NCBI GenBank assembly: GCA_021775955.1
Contig: JAJFGU010000002.1
Location: forward strand, 1-64,000
Direction of reading: 5' to 3'
DNA: 64,000 nucleotides
Source of the DNA: Alphaproteobacteria bacterium
GTDB taxonomy: Bacteria; Pseudomonadota; Alphaproteobacteria; Micavibrionales; Micavibrionaceae
In this document: positions 4,247 through 62,179 of the stretch, piece by piece
Layout: each line of letters opens with the position of its first letter
How positions within the stretch are numbered: position 1 is the first letter of the stretch
Translations under genes and position numbers: made by a program
Notes under the pieces: model-generated
Databases searched by the model: none
Seen by the model: the letters and a program-made list of their open reading frames with translations, nothing else
Told to the model about the DNA's origin: nothing

Positions 4247-5134
4247 ATGACCTATAAAATCGCCGCTTTATACCGTTTTACGCCGATTGACGACACCGCC
4301 GCCATGCGCGGGGAGATCGTTGATTTTTGTGCGGATTTGGATGTTTGCGGCACGCTTTTGATTGCACCGGAAGGGGTCAACGGCACCTTTGGCGGCCCGG
4401 CAACCAATATGGACAAAGCCATCGATTTTCTTGATGAAAAGCTCGGTATAAAAAGCGGCGAGTTGAAATTCTCGGAAAGTGAAAAGAAACCCTTCAACCG
4501 TTTTAAAGTGCGGCTGAAAAAAGAAATCATCACTATGAAAGCGCCCGAGGCTGATCCCAACAAACAGGTCGGTGCTTATGTTGAGGCCGGGGACTGGAAC
4601 GATTTGATCGCTGACCCGGAGACAATCGTCATCGACACGCGCAATGATTACGAAACCAAAGTCGGCACGTTTAAAGATGCGATTGATCCGGGCATTGAAT
4701 CCTTCACCCAGTTTAAAGATTATGTGAGCGCCAATCTCGACGAGGCCGACAGGAAGAAGAAAGTCGCGATGTTTTGCACCGGCGGTATTCGCTGCGAAAA
4801 GGCCTCAAGCTATATGATGGCGCATGGCTTTGATGAGGTTTATCACCTCAAGGGCGGCATTTTGAAATATCTCGAAACCATTCCCGCCGATCAAAGCCTG
4901 TGGGAAGGGGAATGTTTTATTTTCGATCAACGTGTTGCGGTGACGCATGGTCTAGAGCAAGGCAGCTGGAGCATCTGCCATGGCTGCCGCGAACCGCTCT
5001 CCCAGGAAGAGATTAAACACGAAACATATGAAGAAGGCGTCTCCTGCCCGCATTGCGCAGAGGGCCTCACACCAGAACGCATCAAATCCTTACGCATGCG
5101 GCACAAGCATTACGTGACGCAAAATGACACATAG
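4247..5134 (+). CDS. trhO: tRNA uridine(34) hydroxylase TrhO (rhodanese-like)
   Basis: 295 residues in the YceA/TrhO layout: an acylphosphatase-like N-terminal domain (1-95, with IAPEGVNGTFGG), a rhodanese domain (about 115-220) with the active loop CTGGIRC (C177), and a C-terminal zinc-like CxxC...CxxC segment (CHGC and CPHC, about 245-275). TrhO makes 5-hydroxyuridine at tRNA position 34. The gene overlaps the acylphosphatase gene by 11 nt, implying co-translation. Confidence 0.9.
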   Translation: MTYKIAALYRFTPIDDTAAMRGEIVDFCADLDVCGTLLIAPEGVNGTFGGPATNMDKAIDFLDEKLGIKSGELKFSESEKKPFNRFKVRLKKEIITMKAPEADPNKQVGAYVEAGDWNDLIADPETIVIDTRNDYETKVGTFKDAIDPGIESFTQFKDYVSANLDEADRKKKVAMFCTGGIRCEKASSYMMAHGFDEVYHLKGGILKYLETIPADQSLWEGECFIFDQRVAVTHGLEQGSWSICHGCREPLSQEEIKHETYEEGVSCPHCAEGLTPERIKSLRMRHKHYVTQNDT

Positions 5135-5468
5135 ATATATTCGGGTTTATGGACAAGTTCAACATGTCGGATACAGGGGCTGGGCCGTTCAGAAAGCTAC
5201 AGAACTTGGCCTTGATGGATCCGTTAAGAATATAGAGGACGGGACGGTTGAGATATTCATCTCTGGCCCGAACGATAAGGTAGATAAATTTACACAGGCC
5301 TGTCAAATAGGCCCTGAGCGTGCAGAGGTGGATGGCATTCATACGAGGGACAAGGATTGGGCATATCGCGGCGAACCCGGCTTTATAAATCTCGGCGGCA
5401 AGCTTCAATACCCGAACACGCTACCTTGCTCTTTACCTTCACAAGACCCTGCATTTGATTGCAAATAA
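5124..5468 (+). CDS. Acylphosphatase (first of two)
   Basis: 114 residues. The signature YGQVQHVGYRGWA with the phosphate-binding loop and Arg, followed by GLDGSVKNIEDGTVEIFISGP with the catalytic Asn, marks an acylphosphatase (hydrolysis of carboxyl-phosphate bonds). The first 90 residues are the domain; about 24 extra residues form a tail. It starts inside the 3' end of trhO. It diverges from the second copy and is lower in GC than its neighbours. Confidence 0.8.
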   Translation: MTHRYIRVYGQVQHVGYRGWAVQKATELGLDGSVKNIEDGTVEIFISGPNDKVDKFTQACQIGPERAEVDGIHTRDKDWAYRGEPGFINLGGKLQYPNTLPCSLPSQDPAFDCK

Positions 5469-5493
5469 TCCTACAACAAACCATATTGGTACC

Positions 5494-5769
5494 ATGATCA
5501 CAAAACATCTTCGCATTAAAGGCCGGGTGCAGGGCGTCTGGTACCGCGCATGGACGATAGAACAGGCAACAAAGCTGGGATTAAAGGGCTGGGTGCACAA
5601 TTGCACCGATGGCAGTGTTGAAGCGCTCGTTCACGGCCCCGAAGAAGATGTTGAACAAATGATCACGGCCTGCCGGGGCGGCCCACCAAGTGCACAAGTA
5701 TCAGACATTGAAATCAGTGACGGCACGTATGATGGCGGGCAGACTTTTGAACAACGTGCAACGTGTTAG
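5494..5769 (+). CDS. Acylphosphatase (second of two)
   Basis: 91 residues from the ATG at 5494, the usual family length (about 90). IKGRVQGVWYRAW (P-loop with Arg) and GLKGWVHNCTDGSVEALVHGP (catalytic Asn in VHN) are both intact. An in-frame upstream ATG at 5455 would add 13 unrelated residues and overlap the first acylphosphatase, so it is less likely. The tandem with the previous gene and with TrhO, whose own N-terminal fold is acylphosphatase-like, is notable. Confidence 0.85.
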   Translation: MITKHLRIKGRVQGVWYRAWTIEQATKLGLKGWVHNCTDGSVEALVHGPEEDVEQMITACRGGPPSAQVSDIEISDGTYDGGQTFEQRATC

Positions 5770-6569: not shown

Positions 6570-6883
6570 AGCCAATCTCCCGTATCAAAGCTTTCGTCAA
6601 CAAACAAATAAGAGACCAAATCTTCGCCTACCTCATCCGTGGGCGTCTCTATATTCATCCCGGCAAATAGACCGAGCACCAAAAACACCGCCATCGCCAG
6701 CGCCGGCCTGGGCAGCAAAAACTCATCCGCCAGCGCGCCGAACCAGCCTGCCAGATCAAAACCTCCGGCTTTTGATTTTTGTCCACGCCCTTCCAAAGAC
6801 GCGGCAATAATCTTTTCGGCCAGATGGCTCCGCGCCTGCGGTTCCGCTCTTTTCGTCAGCAATTCATCCAGTTCATCAACCAT
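6566..6883 (-). CDS. Single-helix membrane protein, probable anti-sigma factor
   Basis: 105 residues. The N-terminal half is cytoplasmic and charged; a single membrane helix follows (ALAMAVFLVLGLFAGMNI, about 62-79) and a short acidic outside tail. Its place directly after an ECF sigma gene (8-nt overlap) and before a periplasmic sensor (4-nt overlap) is the usual position of an anti-sigma factor. No zinc-binding HxxxCxxC is present, so this is inference from context. Confidence 0.6.
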   Translation of the reverse strand: MVDELDELLTKRAEPQARSHLAEKIIAASLEGRGQKSKAGGFDLAGWFGALADEFLLPRPALAMAVFLVLGLFAGMNIETPTDEVGEDLVSYLFVDESFDTGDWL

Positions 6884-7457
6884 AGTCTTCTTTCCTCCTT
6901 ATCAACCCTCTCCTTGTTAATTCATCGCGCAGCCCCGCCTTGGCACGCATCAATAATGACTCCAACGCCTTGATCCCAACACCCAGTGCTTCTGCCGCTT
7001 CCTTGTTGCTCAACCCCTCGTAAAAACATAAATTCAGCGCCGCTTTTTGACGCTCCGGCAAAGCCTGTATCGCTGCCTCGATATATTTTTGCTCCTGACT
7101 GTCTTCCATTTCACGCTGCTGGTCTTTGGACGGATCGACCAGACGCTCGACAACTTCAGTGCCGTAAGAGTTTTTCCTTTTGCGCAAGCGGTCCAGCGCC
7201 TGATTGGTGACCACCCGGTAAAACCATGTGGTAAATTTGGCACCTTTGCTTGCATCCCAGCTTTCGGGCCTGTCCCATAATTTTAAAAACGCTTCCTGCA
7301 CAATATCCTCTGCTTCTTCCTGCTGGCCGCACATGCGAAAAGCCGTGGCATAAAACCGGTCCGTATGCCGCCTCACCAGCATAGCGAATGCCTGATGGTC
7401 CTGCTCACGCACGCGAACCATCAGGCGTTCATCGCTTTCTTCTTCGGCATCAGCCAT
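6876..7457 (-). CDS. ECF-type RNA polymerase sigma factor
   Basis: 193 residues. Sigma region 2 shows DHQAFAMLVRRHTDRFYATAF and EDIVQEAFLKLWDRPESW; the DNA-melting motif is FTTWFYRVVTNQALDRLRKRK. Region 4 is LPERQKAALNLCFYEGLSNKEAAEALG with the recognition helix ALESLLMRAKAGLRDEL. There is no region 3, as expected for ECF. It forms an operon with an EF-hand protein upstream and a probable anti-sigma and metal sensor downstream, suggesting control by metals or envelope stress. Sub-group not assigned. Confidence 0.92.
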   Translation of the reverse strand: MADAEEESDERLMVRVREQDHQAFAMLVRRHTDRFYATAFRMCGQQEEAEDIVQEAFLKLWDRPESWDASKGAKFTTWFYRVVTNQALDRLRKRKNSYGTEVVERLVDPSKDQQREMEDSQEQKYIEAAIQALPERQKAALNLCFYEGLSNKEAAEALGVGIKALESLLMRAKAGLRDELTRRGLIRRKEDYG

Positions 7458-26785: not shown

Positions 26786-28042
26786 ATGAGTACATATAAA
26801 TCAGACTTCCTGAATATCCTAGACGAGCGCGGCTTTATTCACCAGTGCTCCGATTTTGACGCGCTCGATGCCAAATTATGCGAGGGCGTGCAGAGTGCCT
26901 ATATCGGCTTTGATGCCACGGCGCAGAGCCTTCATGTCGGCAATCTGACCGGTATTATGATGCTATACTGGTTCCAACAATCCGGGCACAAGCCAATCAC
27001 TTTAATGGGCGGCGGCACGTCAAAGATTGGCGATCCGTCCTTTAAGGACGAGCAACGCAGCCTGCTCGACGATGAAACCATCGAGGCCAACATTCATCAG
27101 ATCCTGAACACTTGCTTTCACCAGTTCCTGAAATATGGTGACGGCAAAACCGACGCGCTGATGGTCAACAACAATGACTGGCTCGACGGACTGCATTATT
27201 TATCTTTCCTGCGCGATTACGGACGGCATTTTACCGTTAACCGCATGCTGGGATTTGACTCGGTCAAGACGCGGCTCGAGCGCGAAAGCCCGCTTTCCCT
27301 GCTCGAATTCAACTACATGGTGATGCAGGGCTATGATTTCCTTGAGCTGAGCAGGCGCCACAAATGCTCGCTGCAAATGGGCGGGTCCGATCAATGGGGC
27401 AATATCATCAACGGCGTTGATCTGGGCCACAAATCCGACAGGGCGCAATTATTTGCGCTCACCGCGCCACTGCTGACCACGCCCGACGGCAAGAAAATGG
27501 GGAAAACAGAATCCGGCGCGGTTTGGCTTAATGCGGAGATGCTCAGCCCTTATGATTATTACCAGTACTGGCGCAACGTCGATGATGCAATGGTGAGCAC
27601 CTTGCTACGCCGCTTTACAGTCTTGCCGATGGATGAAATTAAAAAACTCGACACGCTTGAGGGCCAGGAAATTAATGAGGCCAAAAAAATCCTCGCCTTT
27701 GAGGCCACCAAGCTCTGCCACGGTGAAGATGCTGCCAATGATGCACAAGGAACAGCGCAAAAGGTTTTTGAACAAGGCAGCGTCGGCGATGATCTGCCGA
27801 GCATTGAAATTGATGAAGCACGTCTTGCGGGTGGTGTATCTGTTGTCGACCTCCTTGTCGAAACCGGCCTCGCCTCCTCCAAAGGCGAAGCACGCAGACT
27901 GATCAAAGGCGGCGGCGCGAAAGTGAACGATAATAAAATTGAAGCCGAAGACGAAAGCGTTTCAAACGCCGACCTGTCTGGCGAAAGCTACCTCAAACTC
28001 TCATCCGGCAAAAAGAAACATGCGCTGGTGAAGGTTTCTTAA
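26786..28042 (+). CDS. tyrS: Tyrosyl-tRNA synthetase
   Basis: 418 residues from ATG 26786 ([20 protein letters not shown]); the frame is open upstream but overlaps anmK. HIGH-type motif [10 protein letters not shown], tyrosine-binding [16 protein letters not shown]-type motif KKMGKTESG, and a C-terminal S4 RNA-binding domain ([18 protein letters not shown]). It charges tRNA-Tyr. Its 3' end overlaps the sigma factor gene by 4 bp. Confidence 0.95.
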
Positions 28043-29691
28043 ACAGGTTCGAATTCTAAAGCCGAGGTTACAGAGGCTGCCTCCTTATCCTCCAACTCAC
28101 CGCCTCTCACCGATTTAATCGATATGTTGTTATCTGGACCATAAAGGTTTTGCGCTTTATTTTGAAAAGACACCTCCAGCTTTTCTCTTGGCAAATCTGG
28201 AATTTCCTCTAACCGCAATCCTGTCTTTTTTTGATACCTGTCTAAGATAATGCGCCTAACCTTCTCTTTTGCCTCATACGTTCTCAAACTTACTCGACTT
28301 CCAGGACTGCCGTGCAAAAGGTTTTCGGGGACGCCCCTCTTCCCTCCCAAAGCATGCCTGACCAATATAGAGGCGTTTTTTACGTTTAATTCCCTGCCAA
28401 TCTGAACCAGCTTTATATCTGTTCGTAAAAACAGAAGAGCTGCCTGAAAAGCCACCCCCCCCCTTGCTCCAAACAACTTTCTAAACCAACCTTCAAAGTC
28501 AGGAGACTTAAAAATCTCCTGCATATTATTGTTGCGTGGAAGAGGTGGAAAATCTGAAAAATTTGTCTCTATTTGATATTTTTTAAAAATGGATTGTCTT
28601 ATTTGTTCTCTTACGTTGCGTTTTTTTAAGTCCACGGCCTTAAGGTCTTTACGACCCACCAACTTTTGATGAATTGCCAGTTTTTTACTACTGAATCCTC
28701 TTTTTAAGCATGTAGAAACACTTCTTGCCCCTGAACTATCTTCTATCTCTGGTAAAGAAAAGTCCGTTCCCAGATAAAGCAATCCCGCCGCAAAAACCCT
28801 TCTTCCGTCTTTTCTAAACAGGCCTTTAAACCACTCCTGAAATTTTCCAGTATTAAAAATGTCCTTCACGAAGCTTTCAGAATCCCATCCGCCGTTTATA
28901 GCATTCATCTTTTCCCTAAGCGCAATGATGGCCTGTCCATGAAGTTGGCAAATACGCGATTCAGTTACATTCATTCTGTCGCCTATTTCATGCATTGGGA
29001 GTTCAGAATCGTAATATAGGTGGAGAATTTGGGCTTGGTTTTCGGGTAGGCTATCAATAAATTGTGATAGAATTTCAGATTTTTGCTTACTGCCCATTTC
29101 ATCAAGAACGCTAACATCATCAGAAGGAATAATATCGCCGAGCACCAGACCGTCCTCACCAATTGGGTCGTCAATGTTGAGATCAGGCCTCCACAACATG
29201 GCCCTTTTTATTCTATCCAATGGACAACCGAGCGCCACGAGTTGTTCTGTAACCTCATCATCGCTTAAAGGCCCCTCAGCCCTCTGCCGAATTTCTCTTA
29301 TCTTTTCACGCATCTCATAAACAGAACGCGGCAAACCATTTTGATTACTTTGCCCCCGCAAAAAGTCCAGCATGGAGCCGCGGATACGAAAACTGACAAA
29401 TGTCTTTAACTTTGTTTCTTTTTCTAGTTCAAATCTTGGAAGACACTGTAACGCCCCCATCATTCCTTCGGAAAAAAGCTCTTCCTGTAGTTCTCGTGTT
29501 TTTGCAAGTTTTGTCGCTTGCACTCGACACTCAACAATAAAGCCCCTCATAAGCTGATCGAGAAGCTCTGGATTGCCCGTATCCATCCAGTTTTGCCACA
29601 AGGTAATATCCGGGTCCGTCCCATTAGAGACAGAACCCGAATGACCGCTCAGTTCGACAGGTATAATATTTCCATCTACAGCTTGTTTCAT
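28039..29691 (-). CDS. FliA-class sigma factor with duplicated C-terminal module
   Basis: 550 residues from ATG 29691 (562 from TTG 29727; residue numbers here use the longer form). Residues about 60-280 are a sigma-28/FliA factor: [17 protein letters not shown] and [13 protein letters not shown] (region 2), [12 protein letters not shown] (region 3), and [26 protein letters not shown] with [17 protein letters not shown] (region 4). FliA normally ends here (about 240 aa). This protein goes on for about 275 residues as two similar modules, about 287-398 and 402-516: each has F..(G/P)DFxxWFxxLF, then a hydrophobic L-L-x-L-x-T-D stretch, a helix-turn-helix-like part, and ends in PxLPR. The tail (517-562) is low complexity. 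Role: probably flagellar or envelope genes, inferred only from family. Confidence 0.85.
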
Positions 29692-29769
29692 AAGCTGTTT
29701 TTTACATATAAACAGAGCGGGTTTCAAGCTTTTTCCGCGTCCTCCGCGCCTCCGTGTTTAAAACCCCCC

Positions 29770-29798
29770 TTGACAATATATGCTTTTTTTCCTATAAT
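29770..29798 (+). promoter_or_regulatory. Consensus sigma-70 promoter
   Basis: TTGACA at 29770-29775 and TATAAT at 29793-29798 with 17 bp between: a perfect match to the consensus. It points rightward into a 300-bp region without a conventional gene, divergent from the sigma factor gene. Confidence 0.8.
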
Positions 29799-29866
29799 GG
29801 GGCTGCAAACTGGAGAGGCCACCTATACCTATTTGAGTTATGTAAAATAATATTGGGGAGTGCACG

Positions 29867-30076
29867 GTGTTTTCTTTGTTACAGAAAACCAACGGACTAT
29901 TAAGATCGCAAATAAAAGCAAGAAAAATCAATCATATAACAAATCCCGGGAAAAAAACGACCAACGAACTATTAAAGTCAGGAAGGCCGTCATTGCGAGC
30001 GCAGCGACGCAATCCAGTGCCCAGTAGAAAGATTCTGGATTGCTTCGTCATTTCATTCTTCGCAATGACAAGTTAG
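29867..30076 (+). CDS. Possible small protein behind the consensus promoter
   Basis: A 69-codon frame with GTG start at 29867 and GGGGAG 6 nt upstream. The first 42 residues are basic; the rest is encoded by the palindromic repeat at 29988-30070 and is therefore not conserved gene sequence. Whether it is translated is uncertain; the transcript may instead be a small RNA. Confidence 0.25.
   Translation: MFSLLQKTNGLLRSQIKARKINHITNPGKKTTNELLKSGRPSLRAQRRNPVPSRKILDCFVISFFAMTS
29988..30070. repeat. Palindromic repeat, family A, copy 2
   Basis: Starts CGTCATTGCGAGCG (29988-30001), contains CAATCCAG / CTGGATTG inverted arms, and ends TTCGCAATGAC. Same family as 3468-3539. Flanked on the right by TTATTCGTGTTCATTCGCGG (30079-30098), another common intergenic repeat type. 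Confidence 0.75.
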
Positions 30077-55550: not shown

Positions 55551-58500
55551 TTAAGGCACCACAATATTATATTTTGCACCAAGGTATCGTTCAATCGCCT
55601 GACGATCAGCAACAGATAAACTTTCATCAAAGAGCAATATCTCACTAATATCACCATTGAGCGGTCTGGCATTATCATCAAAGTTATTACCAACCGCAAA
55701 GGTCGTGTTTCCATCAACATTCCCCAGGGGAGTCGCTCCGGTTGTAGAGCTGACGGTGTTATCAAAGATTACGCCATCATGACGGATATCTAACGAGCTG
55801 GAGGCAAAATCAAATCCGATAATCGCGGCTGCAGCCGGCGCTGAACCCCCGCTGCTATCATTTCTAAGCGCATTACCTGCGACATCTTCATGGAAAACAA
55901 TATTGTAGTTCTCAGATGAATCCATTTCTAAAGCAATCCCAGGTAACGTGCCTATCCCTCCATTCGGGCGGTGCCTTATGATCGTGGAGCTCGAACCGGA
56001 ATTGTTAACGTCAACAACAACAAACAATGTGTGACCGTTGGCTGACGCTATGCTTATCACTGCGGAGTTCAATGAATCATTCGTGCCATCAAACCTGGCG
56101 ACCGGGAGACCGTTGAGACCAGCAGCCACAAAGGTTGGGCGGCTGCCGGGTGCGCCCTGTAGAACATTTACACCGCCTCCTGATTTATCAACCCATGTTG
56201 CAATTGCACCCGCTGTAATACCGCTTTCAGCCACTCCTTCCGGTGCGCCATCTCCATCAAGGTCATTGCCATCAAGCCAAACAGCCAGGCTCGCAATATC
56301 GACCGGTGCAAAACCGCGGAAATTAAAGGCCGTTGTTGACGCAATGCCTGCATATGGGTTGCCAAACAGGTCATCAAACGCACCGGCATCAATCAAAACA
56401 TAAACATCTGTCGCCAGAGGATAGTCATTGGCCGGATTGATTGTAATGATGGCCGTACCGCCACCAGTGACAAGCCCCGTCGTCACGTCAATCGTTTCAA
56501 GCAAAACATTATCAGCTGTGCGTCTGATTTCTATGTTTCCAACGTTCTTATTCACTGCTTCACTGAACGTAATAATAATGTTTTCAGTCAGAAGAACATC
56601 GACATCATTATCAGCCGGACTAGAATCTGTCGCCGGATTAAAGGTCGGCGGCGTGACGTCGTTGGAAGTTGTAAAGTTAAGCGCTCCGCTCGCTATACCG
56701 GCAAAAGCATTACCCGCGATGTCCCGTATAACGTCAGCCCCAATCACAAAATCATAATCTGTTGTGAGATCAAGAATGCCAGTGGGATTGATCGTGACCA
56801 TGCTACCGGCAATAACAACCTGCGCGTCGCCGATCGGGATAACTGTTGTGCTTGATCCGTCTGTTGTGTCTGTAAGCGTAATATTGCCGATATTGGCCTG
56901 CACATTTTCATCAAAACTTAGAACAATGTTATCAGCCGCACCAAAGGCGGGCTCATTATCCACCGGCGTTGATCCGGTTAGCATAGGTGCTGTCTGATCG
57001 GTGATTGGCACAACGATGGGCGTAAAGGCCGTAATCGCCGGAAGTGTGTTGGTTGTGCCAATAATAGTACCGCCATTCAGGTCCAGATCATTGATGGTGA
57101 TCGCAGCGGCGCCGACATCCCCGGCGATATAAACGTGGCGGAACACCAGTTGCGTCGGCGTGCTGGCCGCCGCGTTATAAGCAAAGGTTCTGGCATTGGC
57201 ATCGATCAAACCATTGATAAACGGTGCACCAGCGACGGTGACTGCTTGTGTGAAGGTAAGCCTCAGATCTGCATTATTGCCAACGAACTGTGGCCCAGTG
57301 ATCAGGGCGGGTGCAACATTAATGAATGGCGCTGATTTATCCGTGGCTGGCGGAGACGGGTTAACCAAATCAAGATTGGTGTAAGCTGCTTCCTGACGCG
57401 TCTCCAGCGCTGGATTAACCAACAACGATGTCGCGCCCGTACCGATGGTCAAGCTCACCACATCAGCCTGATTACCCATTAACACCGCAACTCCAACCGC
57501 TGGCACAACATCAATCAAACCTGCGCGGACCTGAACCGTTGTAATTGCACCATCATCTGTCACATCGATATCCGTCCCGAGCAGGTTAACCGTACCACCC
57601 GGAACATTCACGACGGTGATGCCGCCGCCACTGCCGGAGATAAATTGCACGAAACCGCCATTGGTCGCTGTGACAGTCAGGGTTGTATTGTTAAACTCAA
57701 GAATAACATCACCGCCGCCAGACGCCGAAACATTGGCAATCGCACCATTGCTAAAGGTAATAATGCCAAAGTCACCGTTAGGAACGGTAATGGCTGTGTT
57801 AAAGGGTAAATTAACGCCCGCACCGGTCGCTACCCCGCCCACATCAAACGGCAACCCAACACTCAGCGCACTGAACTGCGCAGTAATGATGGTCGCTAAC
57901 GCAGGCACGGCCTTGAGGCGTTCTTCCACGCGAATGCGATTTTCCCTGCGGACTTTTTCAAAGACTTTAGAGCGCACAGAAGCCCTGCCCGCGGCAGGCT
58001 CCATAGCTGCCAGCACCAGATTAGGCTTATCCTCATCATAAAGCGGAATACGGTATTGCAGCGCCAACTCAACACCATCTCTCCCACCATTTTCTTCAAC
58101 AACAGAACCTTTGAGCGTAAAATTATCATGAACATTATATTCAGCACTGACCTCTAACCCGCGTATATCATCATCCGTCTCACGGAAATATTGATAGCCT
58201 TTTCCAAAGACACTGAGCTCCGGCAGGAACGGTAGCGTATAACCAAGCTCAAGATCATAGCCCTCAAGCGCGCGCTCTTCATACTCAAGGCCATTCGCAT
58301 CACGGCGGCTGTCCTGAAAATCTGTCAGCGGATAATAATAATTGGCCGCCAGATTAAGATCCTGTGCACTGGCATCCACCCCAACGCTCATCCGTGAATG
58401 ATTGTATGGCCATTGGTGATCAAAAAATACATTACCGCCGATCAAATATTTTTTATCAACGGTGAGATAGCGATAGGCCGCACCCATATTGAGCGTATGA

Positions 58501-59711
58501 TGCGCCACGTCATCATTAATATCAACGCTCCGTTCGTTAAGAATACCGCTCCCTTGAAGGAAAACGTTATGTCGTAGGTCGGCAGATTGATAAACTGGCT
58601 GGGTAATCAGAGCGCTGAAATATGAATCCTCAAAATTATTGATGTTATATTCGAGTTCCATATTGCGCAGCGCATAAAGATCACTACGCTTCGCCGCAGC
58701 AAGGCCCGCATCAATAAGGCCGCGCGCACCGGAGAGCATAAAGGCATCCGTTTTATCAGCATAGAAATCACTCGATCCATCTTCCGATCCGGCGCCGGAT
58801 ACAAGATCACCGATCAGGCCCTCAACTGTATTTCTGGTACTCTCACCGATGTTTTTCTTTACGTGATGAATGAAAGTTCTACCCGCACCAGCCTCGCTCG
58901 ATAGCGCCTCAGCCTGCCCCAACTCACGGTCCAAAAACCCGGAGAGGTAAATACTACCGGCGGCTTCAAAAACGTCCTGCCCAAGCGCTACAAGCTGCTC
59001 CCGCGCCACCTCATTACCCTGCCCGGCATTAACGCCATCGCCAACACTGCGCAACGTGTCGACAAAGCGATTACGTGCGACCCCATAGGCCGCCTTTGCT
59101 GCCTGGACACCGGGCGTATCAAGATATTGAGGCTCCAGAGAAAATTGCTCGCCATAAGCATCTATGTTTTGTTGATGCTCAAAAGGACCAGAAAACTCAT
59201 CAGTCAGCGCTAGATCCAAATCCTGAATATTAGCATTGGAAGAACGCGGTAGACGCATCCCCAATGGCTGCAGCATCTTGGGAAGGCCGCGCATTGTAGA
59301 ACTATCAGGCACCTGTGCTACTTGCTGTACGTTATCCGTAGCTTGAGCAGGCGCAAAAGAGGACGATGGTAATTGTGCTCTGCTCGAGATAAAGCACTGC
59401 ATTTCTTGCAGCCTAACATAGCCACACAGCGTTTTAGATTGCGTGTTTGTGAGCTCAGAAATTTCAAGATGGTGCTCTATCAACCCCGACGGTGTCTGGT
59501 AGGTATTCACCCATAACTGGTTACGACGAATATATTGTTTCAAATCAACGGGAATAGCTTCGAAAAATACTTGTGCTTTTTTTTGTGAATTGAACATGCC
59601 AATACGCAAAGATGCCGCCTGATTTTCAAAGGTCGCAGCATAAGCAGATACGCCCACCAAAACGGTAGCGCTGAACAGTAAGAATAGAATTTTAACGCGG
59701 TCAAAAGCCAA
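55551..59711 (-). CDS. Inverse autotransporter adhesin (intimin/invasin-like)
   Basis: 1386 residues. A TTG start with AGGAAG 7 nt upstream is used; no ATG lies near. Order: signal peptide (1-25), an N-terminal segment of unknown fold (26-330), an outer-membrane beta-barrel (about 340-590: EYNINNFEDSYFSALI, GAAYRYLTVDKKYLIGGNVF, DLNLAANYYYPLTDF) ending with NRIRVEERL, typical of invasin/intimin barrels; a FecR-like beta-solenoid (about 630-760: GGTVNLLGTDIDV); two to three Ig-like domains (about 795-1150: SSPADNDVDVLLTENIIITF); and a LamG/concanavalin-like C-terminus (about 1150-1386: ARFDGTNDSLNS, SEILLFDESL). A surface adhesin. Confidence 0.85.
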   Translation of the reverse strand: MAFDRVKILFLLFSATVLVGVSAYAATFENQAASLRIGMFNSQKKAQVFFEAIPVDLKQYIRRNQLWVNTYQTPSGLIEHHLEISELTNTQSKTLCGYVRLQEMQCFISSRAQLPSSSFAPAQATDNVQQVAQVPDSSTMRGLPKMLQPLGMRLPRSSNANIQDLDLALTDEFSGPFEHQQNIDAYGEQFSLEPQYLDTPGVQAAKAAYGVARNRFVDTLRSVGDGVNAGQGNEVAREQLVALGQDVFEAAGSIYLSGFLDRELGQAEALSSEAGAGRTFIHHVKKNIGESTRNTVEGLIGDLVSGAGSEDGSSDFYADKTDAFMLSGARGLIDAGLAAAKRSDLYALRNMELEYNINNFEDSYFSALITQPVYQSADLRHNVFLQGSGILNERSVDINDDVAHHTLNMGAAYRYLTVDKKYLIGGNVFFDHQWPYNHSRMSVGVDASAQDLNLAANYYYPLTDFQDSRRDANGLEYEERALEGYDLELGYTLPFLPELSVFGKGYQYFRETDDDIRGLEVSAEYNVHDNFTLKGSVVEENGGRDGVELALQYRIPLYDEDKPNLVLAAMEPAAGRASVRSKVFEKVRRENRIRVEERLKAVPALATIITAQFSALSVGLPFDVGGVATGAGVNLPFNTAITVPNGDFGIITFSNGAIANVSASGGGDVILEFNNTTLTVTATNGGFVQFISGSGGGITVVNVPGGTVNLLGTDIDVTDDGAITTVQVRAGLIDVVPAVGVAVLMGNQADVVSLTIGTGATSLLVNPALETRQEAAYTNLDLVNPSPPATDKSAPFINVAPALITGPQFVGNNADLRLTFTQAVTVAGAPFINGLIDANARTFAYNAAASTPTQLVFRHVYIAGDVGAAAITINDLDLNGGTIIGTTNTLPAITAFTPIVVPITDQTAPMLTGSTPVDNEPAFGAADNIVLSFDENVQANIGNITLTDTTDGSSTTVIPIGDAQVVIAGSMVTINPTGILDLTTDYDFVIGADVIRDIAGNAFAGIASGALNFTTSNDVTPPTFNPATDSSPADNDVDVLLTENIIITFSEAVNKNVGNIEIRRTADNVLLETIDVTTGLVTGGGTAIITINPANDYPLATDVYVLIDAGAFDDLFGNPYAGIASTTAFNFRGFAPVDIASLAVWLDGNDLDGDGAPEGVAESGITAGAIATWVDKSGGGVNVLQGAPGSRPTFVAAGLNGLPVARFDGTNDSLNSAVISIASANGHTLFVVVDVNNSGSSSTIIRHRPNGGIGTLPGIALEMDSSENYNIVFHEDVAGNALRNDSSGGSAPAAAAIIGFDFASSSLDIRHDGVIFDNTVSSTTGATPLGNVDGNTTFAVGNNFDDNARPLNGDISEILLFDESLSVADRQAIERYLGAKYNIVVP

Positions 59712-60144: not shown

Positions 60145-60412
60145 TTTGTACCATTCTTTGTACCAAAAGGTTAACAAGGAATGTCGGTAATATGTGGAAA
60201 GCCTTAGTGAGTCATGCCTCGGAACGAAGTGTAGAGGTATTGGTTGCGGGAGTGCGATCTGATTTAAACCTGCAAGAAGATGGTAGCTCATCTTCAAAAG
60301 TGCAGGAATCGATGGTTGCGGGGGCGTGCAATCCATTTGCCCTGCTGTTCATGTCACCAGACATAGCAGCTCATGTAAGTCGTTATAAATCAAGATATAA
60401 ATCGGCCTAAGT

Positions 60413-60436
60413 GTTGCGGGATCAGTTTCCCGCAAC
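60413..60436. other. Candidate oriT / attenuator hairpin upstream of mobC
   Basis: GTTGCGGGA (60413-60421) and TCCCGCAAC (60428-60436): perfect 9-bp inverted repeat, 6-nt loop, 44 bp before the mobC start. The half GGTTGCGGG recurs at 60243 and 60312. Position ahead of mobC and relaxase is typical for an origin of transfer, but no nick consensus was identified. The rest of 60145-60412 holds no convincing gene. Confidence 0.45.
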
Positions 60437-60479
60437 CACCTGCTGTGTCTGTTTTAATCAAAAACAGGAGGTATTTATC

Positions 60480-60881
60480 ATGGCCAAAGAAAAACGCTAT
60501 GGCGGGAAAGATTTTGTTCCCGTTTCTATTCGTCTCGCTTTTGAAGAAAAAGCGTATTTACAGGAACAGGCTGGTTCTCAGTCGTTAAGCGGTTATATCC
60601 GTTCACAATTACTGAAGGACGCAAAACCTAGAAAGAAACAGCGCAAAAAACGCCGTAAACCAGCATTACGCGAGAAGCAAATGGTGCGCTTGTATGGCCT
60701 GATGTTAAATTCGCGGATTGCCGGAAATCTCAATCAGATAGCCAAAAAGGCCAATAGCGGATCACTAAATCTTTCCGACCCCGAAGAAAAAACGTTTCTG
60801 TTTGGTACACTTGAGGCAGTACAGAGCCTATGCAGTGCCTTCCACAAAGAACTTGGAATCAAGTTTGAAGAGGATGAATAA
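60480..60881 (+). CDS. MobC-like relaxosome accessory protein
   Basis: 133 residues from ATG 60480 with a perfect AGGAGG 8 nt upstream. Ribbon-helix-helix-like N-terminus (VPVSIRLAFEEKAYLQEQA), a very basic linker, and the MobC motif RIAGNLNQIAKKANSGSL. It helps the relaxase at oriT. Its TAA overlaps the relaxase ATG by one base. Confidence 0.8.
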   Translation: MAKEKRYGGKDFVPVSIRLAFEEKAYLQEQAGSQSLSGYIRSQLLKDAKPRKKQRKKRRKPALREKQMVRLYGLMLNSRIAGNLNQIAKKANSGSLNLSDPEEKTFLFGTLEAVQSLCSAFHKELGIKFEEDE

Positions 60882-62179
60882 TGCTGCTCAAGGCTTCTCA
60901 GCGCGGAGGAGCCAAACAACTCGCTAATCACCTCCTTCGCGGCAAAGAAAATGAACATGTTGAAGTGTATGATGTGCGTGGCAGCACATCTGATAACCCG
61001 CATGTTATATTTCAGGAAATGTATGCGCTGAGCAAGGGAACTGAATGCAGACAGTTCATGTTTTCAGTCAGTATGAATCCACCTCTGGATGCTGATGCAC
61101 CGCCAGAATATTTTGAAAACGCTCTGGCAAGTATTGAAAAAGAGATGGGGCTAGAGAATCAGCCGCGTATTGTCGTTTTTCATGAAAAGGAAGGCCGTCG
61201 TCATGCGCATTGCGTTTGGTCACGCATTGATCTGCTGGAGGTGAAGGCAATCAATCTCCCCTTTTACAAGAACAAGCTGAATGAAATTTCCAAGCAGCTT
61301 TATCTGAAACACGGCTGGGAGTTGCCCAAAGGCTATATTGATCGGCAGTATTCTGATCCAACCAATTTCAGCCTTGAAGAATGGCAACAGGCCAAACGTG
61401 CCAAGGAAGATGCTAAAATTCTGAAACGTCTATTTGCTCAGACGTGGCAAGCATCGGATAATAAGCAATCTTACGCTCAAGCCCTCAAAGAATATGGATT
61501 TACACTTGCCCGTGGTGATCGCCGTGGCTATGTCGCGATTGACTACAAAGGTGAAGTCTATTCCCTGAGCCGTTGGGCTGGTGTAAAAACCAAGCAATTG
61601 AAAGAACGCCTTGGTGATCCCGAAAACCTTCCATCCGTTGATGAAGCCAAAACTAATATTGCGCAGAAAGTGACACAAGTGCTTGATGGCCACCTTCAAC
61701 AGGTCAGAAATCACTGGCAAGCCAAGCTCAAACCGCTCCGGCGTGTTGTGCGCACAATGCGTAATCAGCATGACACTGAACGCAAACGCTTACAGGAAGA
61801 ACAAAAGAAACGGTGGGAGCATGAAGAGAAACTTCGTATCCAACGTCTGCCAAAAGGCATAAAAGGCTTATGGCACCGTGTAACAGGAAAGTATCAGAAA
61901 GTCCGCGCCCTCAATGAAAAAGATACAAGACGCGCCATAGAACGTGATCAGGCAGAAAAACAAGAGTTGATAACACGGCAACTAAAAGAGCGACAAAAAT
62001 TACAGAAGAAACTGCAAGGGCTGCGCTATGAAAGAAATGAGGCCATGCTGTCTCTACGGCTGGATATTGGCCAATATTTGGACATGCAAGGCAAGGAAAA
62101 TCCAAGCCTTACCGATAAACTCAGCGAAAAACTGAAAAACCAAGATCGTGATAATCCAGATTTTGATAGGGAAATATAA
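60881..62179 (+). CDS. Relaxase/mobilization nuclease
   Basis: 432 residues. The N-terminal relaxase domain shows the three-His metal site: FHEKEGRRHAHCVWSRID (H101, H108, H110). The remainder (about 250-432) is a long basic coiled coil. It nicks DNA at oriT to start conjugal transfer. TraG/T4SS genes are not visible, so this would be a mobilizable, not self-transmissible, element. Confidence 0.88.
   Translation: MLLKASQRGGAKQLANHLLRGKENEHVEVYDVRGSTSDNPHVIFQEMYALSKGTECRQFMFSVSMNPPLDADAPPEYFENALASIEKEMGLENQPRIVVFHEKEGRRHAHCVWSRIDLLEVKAINLPFYKNKLNEISKQLYLKHGWELPKGYIDRQYSDPTNFSLEEWQQAKRAKEDAKILKRLFAQTWQASDNKQSYAQALKEYGFTLARGDRRGYVAIDYKGEVYSLSRWAGVKTKQLKERLGDPENLPSVDEAKTNIAQKVTQVLDGHLQQVRNHWQAKLKPLRRVVRTMRNQHDTERKRLQEEQKKRWEHEEKLRIQRLPKGIKGLWHRVTGKYQKVRALNEKDTRRAIERDQAEKQELITRQLKERQKLQKKLQGLRYERNEAMLSLRLDIGQYLDMQGKENPSLTDKLSEKLKNQDRDNPDFDREI

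Follow-up and report, generated by a model that had tools for sequence, protein, structure and literature searches.

The window, by which we mean the whole stretch of 64,000 nucleotides that was analysed and on which open reading frames were called (contig JAJFGU010000002.1, positions 1 to 64,000), carries on its minus strand a gene for a sigma factor that, by sequence, belongs to the FliA/WhiG class. The protein continues for about 288 residues after region 4, which ends at residue 272, and this extension holds two modules that are homologous to each other, each about 115 residues long (Table 1). The ATG is a likelier start than the upstream TTG because the homologue in a second genome, G002, aligns from the ATG on. 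The stop of the sigma gene and the end of the tyrS reading frame overlap by four nucleotides, tail to tail, and the second neighbour is an asmA/yhdP-like gene (the Pfam run for this assignment was made on the window gene only); both neighbours are the same in G002, where the arrangement with tyrS is identical, and neither is an anti-sigma gene. A frame or assembly artefact was considered and ruled out: no stop interrupts the reading frame, and G002 carries the gene in the same location, again with the four-nucleotide overlap.

Table 1. Features of the sigma factor locus, with positions in the window unless stated otherwise.
Feature	Position	Strand	Remarks and basis
Sigma factor, open reading frame	28039-29727	-	562 aa from TTG 29727
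Sigma factor gene, probable start ATG 29691	28039-29691	-	550 aa
Sigma core, FliA/WhiG class by sequence	28906-29691	-	Acidic, pI 4.8, net -15; Pfam, NCBIfam, PDB sequences, tree, charge
Sigma-70 region 2 (PF04542)	29347-29517	-	Pfam, E 1.2e-9, 38.3 bits (over cut-off); residues 71-127 of 562
Sigma-70 region 4 (PF04545)	28912-29058	-	Pfam, E 3.6e-14, 52.4 bits (over cut-off); residues 224-272 of 562
Module copy A	28528-28872	-	Basic, pI 10.2, net +12; repeat alignment, charge
Module copy B	28183-28527	-	Basic, pI 10.4, net +9; predicted helix-turn-helix-like (AlphaFold, pLDDT 74.4, pTM 0.70); repeat alignment, model, charge
C-terminal tail outside the repeat	28042-28182	-	Acidic stretch of 47 aa, predicted with low confidence when the whole protein is modelled; alignment, model, charge
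Upstream block, candidate control site	29752-29799		G002 has the same base at 41 of 48 positions, as counted on the alignment
Sigma-70 consensus promoter TTGACA-17-TATAAT, perfect, divergent from the sigma gene	29770-29798; G002, L005 2791-2819	+; +	12 of 12 bases in G002

Several other features of the window and of its genome were recorded alongside this locus. A long imperfect hairpin lies between asmA and the sigma gene, at about 29990-30070; the window contains one 13-base stretch of it a single time. The window has another sigma gene, for an ordinary ECF sigma factor (6876-7457, minus strand), and elsewhere in the same genome (L004 838-1974, minus strand; contig C12 near 295.2 kb) a protein of 378 residues combines a region-4-like part, below the Pfam cut-off, with a long remainder that has no significant match. 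Two adjacent tandem open reading frames at 5124-5769 (plus strand) are presumably acylphosphatase-like, and an inverse autotransporter of 1386 residues with Big_5 domains is encoded at 55551-59711 (minus strand). Genes for a MobC-like protein and a MobA/VirD2-type relaxase (60411-62179, plus strand; relaxase GC3 0.42) perhaps lie at the border of a mobilizable element, close to where the window ends.

To place the sigma core, we compared it with profile libraries, with PDB sequences and with a midpoint-rooted tree of 50 cores (the window, G002, 36 FliA/SigD-type and 12 RpoD/RpoH-type rows). The best NCBIfam model is FliA_WhiG (TIGR02479, E 5.9e-35), which scores 121 bits and misses its cut-off of 189.6; the FliA model NF005413 gives 110.1 bits and misses its cut-off of 201. 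None of the five Pfam matches at E up to 10 is to a region 3 family, but the FliA_WhiG profile covers residues 81-274 as one stretch. Among PDB sequences, 6pfj and 6pfv score highest, at 90 bits (labelled 'RNA polymerase sigma factor'), and we take them to be WhiG; FliA follows at 80-81 bits. The region 4 recognition helix is of the FliA type over 10 residues, a likeness seen by comparison with the E. coli row of the alignment. In the tree, the window and G002 cores group with the FliA/SigD-type rows against the RpoD/RpoH-type rows with support of 100/99, and the pair has a stem of 3.62 changes per column and falls outside FliA plus SigD, at a fork without strong support (94/70). The tree tool warns of long branches and marks the window row for its length and its unusual composition. 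On its sequence, then, the core is a deep branch of the FliA class. The first-pass annotation had called the protein a FliA-class sigma factor, and that name holds at the level of the class (tree, TIGR02479) and fails if it is taken to mean an orthologue of FliA (121 of 189.6 bits; placement outside FliA plus SigD). Group 3 sigma factors usually have regions 2, 3 and 4, according to an excerpt of PMC4598750.

The distribution of flagellar genes points in the same direction. Flagellin domains score over their cut-off in all four genomes of the genus, and the window sigma factor is found in two of them. FlgM reaches its cut-off in none of the four; its best match in the window's own genome (E 0.003, 19.3 of the 25 bits required) lies inside a frame of 1274 residues. 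We also counted a flagellar promoter pattern, TAAAN{14,16}GCCGATA, against its reversed-pattern control, using one strict consensus over whole genomes, a count by which a small regulon could be missed. The genomes that carry the gene show no excess of the pattern (5 sites to 12 in the control for its own genome, 10 to 12 for G002); the genus mates without it give 10 to 7 and 7 to 5, and four other relatives 16 to 10, 12 to 11, 7 to 6 and 7 to 5. Because it is present in only two of four flagellin-bearing genomes, in a genus with no FlgM over cut-off, the window sigma factor is not the usual flagellar sigma factor of the genus. Nor is it an orthologue of FliA, since it falls outside FliA and SigD on a long stem, scores below the FliA and WhiG cut-offs and did not turn up in two genus mates that have flagellins. 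What it shares with FliA (sigma-28), SigD and WhiG is the set of core regions, the FliA-type region 4 helix and a place on the outer branch of the FliA/SigD clade; it differs from them in its long extension, in profile scores below cut-off and in the lack of a FlgM over cut-off in its genus. The extension had also been suggested to be an anti-sigma-resistant unit, for which the FlgM search, with none of four genomes over cut-off, offers no evidence.

The repeat in the extension is clear. Copies A and B align with a local score of 132, against 27.7 +/- 4.9 for shuffled sequences (maximum 59 in 2000, and 0 of 2000 in a rerun), so the earlier claim that a domain of about 115 residues has been duplicated after region 4 is borne out, and its boundaries and motifs were off by no more than a few residues. 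As a third copy, the module of G002 scores 158 against A and 178 against B (0 of 2000 shuffles each); it is not clearly nearer to either, and the duplication may have come before or after the two lineages parted. Identity is 27.5% between A and B over 109 residues, 32% between A and G002 and 38% between B and G002, compared with 65% for the pair of cores. Seventeen columns are invariant in all three copies, including those of F..WF..LF...G early in the module and of Y-Q late in it. Behind its module, the G002 protein continues for about 70 residues, in which we found no trace of a second copy (scores of 19-22 against shuffle means of 24-25), and the 47-residue tail of the window protein has no similarity to the G002 tail. 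As copy number differs, one in G002 and two in the window, two copies are not needed for the role of the module. All three copies are basic, with net charges of +12 (A), +9 (B) and +14 (G002) and pI of 10.2-10.4, and the adjoining cores are acidic (pI 4.8-4.9).

No relative of the module was found in the libraries that we searched. At E up to 10, Pfam returned no family for the window tail with both copies; PHROGs returned none for copies A and B, NCBIfam gave no significant match to the window module, and the best of the PDB sequences, at E 0.16, was not significant. With tblastn and an E limit of 1, plasmids and phages yielded no significant relative, and neither did viral contigs and genome contigs in a pattern-based scan that reaches close relatives only. 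The corresponding stretch of the G002 tail has weak matches only, to the winged helix PF23669 (E 0.15, 12.7 of 27 bits), to PF23735 (E 3.1) and to phrog_16293 (E 0.35). A further match to the module in the window's own genome (E 0.07), in a frame that is presumably RelA/SpoT-like, was taken as chance. The expectation that the extension is not an ordinary known domain thus held for the module searched alone, which has no significant match in these libraries. A literature search, largely without subscription papers, gave no FliA-class sigma factor with such a tail in the titles and abstracts of the matches listed.

Structure prediction gave a usable model for one copy. AlphaFold, run on copy B with three sequences, places helices at 26-37, 42-49 and 54-62 and a long C-terminal helix at 86-104, an order of helices as in a helix-turn-helix bundle. 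Four further models of copy B have pLDDT of 49.5-67.9. In Foldseek, the copy B model found no match in the PDB at E 0.001 (best E 2.5) and none in the viral structure library. The best VIA-align match is StyR (Z 5.1, 67 residues aligned, 4.4 A), and of the 50 rows shown, about 40 can be assigned, judging by their titles, to helix-turn-helix regulators, DnaA DNA-binding domains or sigma region 4. Because the tool calls such Z values common, these matches are support for a helix-turn-helix and not proof of one. The copy B model, itself of moderate confidence, is helix-turn-helix-like. The full-length model is poor (53.6, pTM 0.27), too poor for docking the tail; within it, A and B nevertheless show a similar helix order (282-291, 297-308, 313-320, 322-333 and 358-376 in A; 397-407, 411-423, 428-434, 440-447 and 472-490 in B). 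The statement that each copy has a helix-turn-helix-like part therefore has its basis in the model of copy B; copy A was modelled as part of the poor full-length model.

A putative helix-turn-helix behind region 4 raises the question whether the modules are themselves duplicated copies of region 4, which would make the protein a sigma factor with three readers of the -35 type. Some scores agree with this origin: copy B against region 4 of G002 scores 53 (shuffles 23.2 +/- 4.4, 1 of 2000, one of 21 pairs tested), copy B against its own region 4 scores 36 (22 of 2000) and copy A against its own scores 30 (107 of 2000), and three of the eight best VIA-align rows, probably a fourth as well, have titles of sigma region 4 or of sigma/anti-sigma complexes. 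However, a region-4 profile built from the 36 FliA/SigD rows stays at shuffle level, with 46 (A), 38 (B) and 61 (G002) of 200 shuffles reaching or exceeding the real score; hhalign against 20 region-4 rows gives a probability of 6.4% (P 0.0058); and the comparisons of the G002 module with either region 4, and of copy A with region 4 of G002, are at chance. The results on a region 4 origin point both ways but are for the most part negative, and we regard this origin as very doubtful.

The distribution of the gene is narrow. With the full protein as query, a sigma match at E 1e-5 was obtained in 53 of 58 genomes, its own included; besides its own genome only G002 gave a strong match (E 4e-133), and the next best (1.3e-12) groups with the RpoH-type rows. 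The module profile is found in 2 of 142 genomes of the order (its own and G002) and in its own genome only among 385 of the class and among 398 of the phylum, samples that overlap and of which the latter two are draws from larger groups. A scan of genome contigs for the core returned one record, JAJFGV010000113.1, an alphaproteobacterial MAG that is the G002 record. The related genomes searched yielded the module in G002 alone, as one copy and at the same place beside tyrS. FliA-type core matches occur in 206 of the 398 genomes of the phylum, and we examined 34 such frames, made up of 29 of the 30 best-hit loci (the thirtieth being the window's own) and five chosen for their long frames. All 34 end 0-12 residues past the core match, compared with about 288 residues in the window protein. 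The tailed sigma factor is real and, among the genomes searched, rare.

The place of the gene suggests how it may have arrived. At 29 other tyrS loci of the family, an asmA homologue lies within a stretch of at most 1.5 kb beside tyrS in 17, and the sigma gene in none; in the genus mate G003 a VWA/OmpA protein adjoins tyrS, and no tyrS was found in G001. The gap between tyrS and asmA at family loci L043, L044, L046, L053, L055, L059 and L067 holds varied genes or almost nothing across genera, presumably, from a reading of the genes, a transporter, a glycosyltransferase-like gene and a small membrane protein among them. As its contents differ across genera, the gap behaves like a small cargo site. 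Repeats bracketing the sigma gene were not convincing, with only a few imperfect matches of 14-22 bases. Probably an ancestor shared by the two genus members acquired the sigma gene between tyrS and the asmA/yhdP-like gene, presumably by horizontal transfer. The unusual base composition of the gene, described next, agrees with such a gain.

An acquired gene may also be one in decay, with a tail that is an accretion under weak constraint, a relic or a decoy. The presence of the module in only two genomes of the order, the faster divergence of the modules (27-38% identity, against 65% for the core) and the low GC3 would all fit such a fate. GC3 is 0.40 for the sigma gene in both genomes, compared with 0.62 for tyrS in both; nine of 11 sampled window genes have GC3 of 0.52-0.64, and because the other two are low as well (the autotransporter at 0.46 and the relaxase at 0.42) the value for the sigma gene is not unique in the window. 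The selection estimates argue against decay: dN/dS is 0.17 for the core, near the 0.15 of tyrS, and 0.21-0.44, below 0.5, for the module pairs, where dS is saturated. The sigma protein is under purifying selection, with that saturation attached to the values for the modules. The frame is moreover intact in two genomes, 17 columns are invariant in all three copies and the upstream block has been kept in G002, and we find decay decidedly improbable.

That upstream block stands out from its surroundings. The gap upstream of the sigma gene aligns poorly with that of G002, except for the block and for a stretch just before the start codon. The divergent promoter within the block leads into a gap of about 300 bases that has no obvious shared open reading frame; for the divergent transcript, Rfam at E up to 1 gave no match and folding was no better than that of shuffles (z 0.50). 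The promoter may drive a small or antisense RNA; alternatively, the block may serve to control the sigma gene.

As to the role of the tail, region 4 sits at the -35 element, so a tail at its C-terminal side would reach upstream DNA. Our preferred reading, to which we give slightly less than an even chance, is that the protein is an alternative sigma factor of the FliA/WhiG class, specific to its lineage, with a tail that binds DNA and docks the holoenzyme close to its promoters. Regions 2 and 4 would bind core RNA polymerase and the promoter in the usual manner, and the basic, helix-turn-helix-like module behind region 4, present once in G002 and twice in the window, would contact DNA next to the -35 element. 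A sigma factor with its own grip on upstream DNA would need no separate activator, and a second module copy would give a longer footprint. The class of the core, the duplication, the charge pattern, the position of the gene and its distribution in the genomes searched are observed; DNA binding by the module, its upstream placement and the self-sufficiency of the sigma factor are inferred. The earlier proposal of a built-in DNA-binding unit is plausible in view of the basic charge and the model of copy B. The case for a DNA-binding fold is weakened by the lack of a sequence family match, as the sole hint is the sub-threshold PF23669 in G002, by the weakness of the structure matches and by the low scores of the other copy B models and of the full-length model. 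The missing excess of the flagellar promoter pattern also counts against the reading, and the basic module could instead bind RNA, polymerase or the acidic core itself.

The last of these targets leads to a different function, in which the tail regulates the sigma factor that carries it: folded onto the acidic core, the basic modules would keep the sigma factor inactive until a signal arrives, replacing an anti-sigma factor. The opposite charges (core net -15 against the basic modules) agree with such an arrangement, as do the lack of FlgM over cut-off in the genus and a neighbourhood of tyrS and an asmA-like gene with no anti-sigma gene. The fused tail of ECF41 is a precedent: in an excerpt of PMC3426412, removing part of the C-terminus increased activity about 20- and 120-fold, and full removal abolished it. 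However, ECF41 tails are SnoaL-like and the window tail matches no Pfam family; the helix-turn-helix-like model of copy B also speaks against regulation of this kind, and a varying copy number fits a footprint or a linker better than a precise inhibitory fit. By analogy with ECF41 the tail might act in this way, and we think it rather unlikely.

Sigma factors with additional domains are known from other classes. At least 26 ECF groups have N- or C-terminal extensions, according to a passage of PMC8999054, and those with C-terminal extensions share with the window protein the extra C-terminal domain and the absence of an evident adjoining anti-sigma gene. They differ from it in that the tails named in that passage are SnoaL, TPR or Cys-rich, whereas the window protein joins a FliA-class core to a basic, repeated and unmatched module. 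Cyanobacterial sigma-70 proteins have accessory domains at their ends (DUF6596, NB-ARC, WD40 and others, as given in part of PMC11119718), as the window protein does, and its modules, unlike these, match no Pfam family at E up to 10.

Returning to the reading in which the tail binds DNA, it can be taken one step further. Sigma factors often act with separate activators or anti-sigma factors. Here, the sigma factor would be its own activator. Its modules, one or two in number, would form a new family that binds DNA in a sequence-specific way and reads it upstream of the -35 element; we put this forward as possible, while leaning against it. If it is true, one protein would provide both promoter specificity and enhancer-like specificity, and this combination would be changeable through the gain or loss of modules. 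Should the tail bind DNA, the protein would unite a sigma factor and an activator in one natural fusion whose reading heads vary in number, and the two genomes offer two natural versions of it, with one module and with two.
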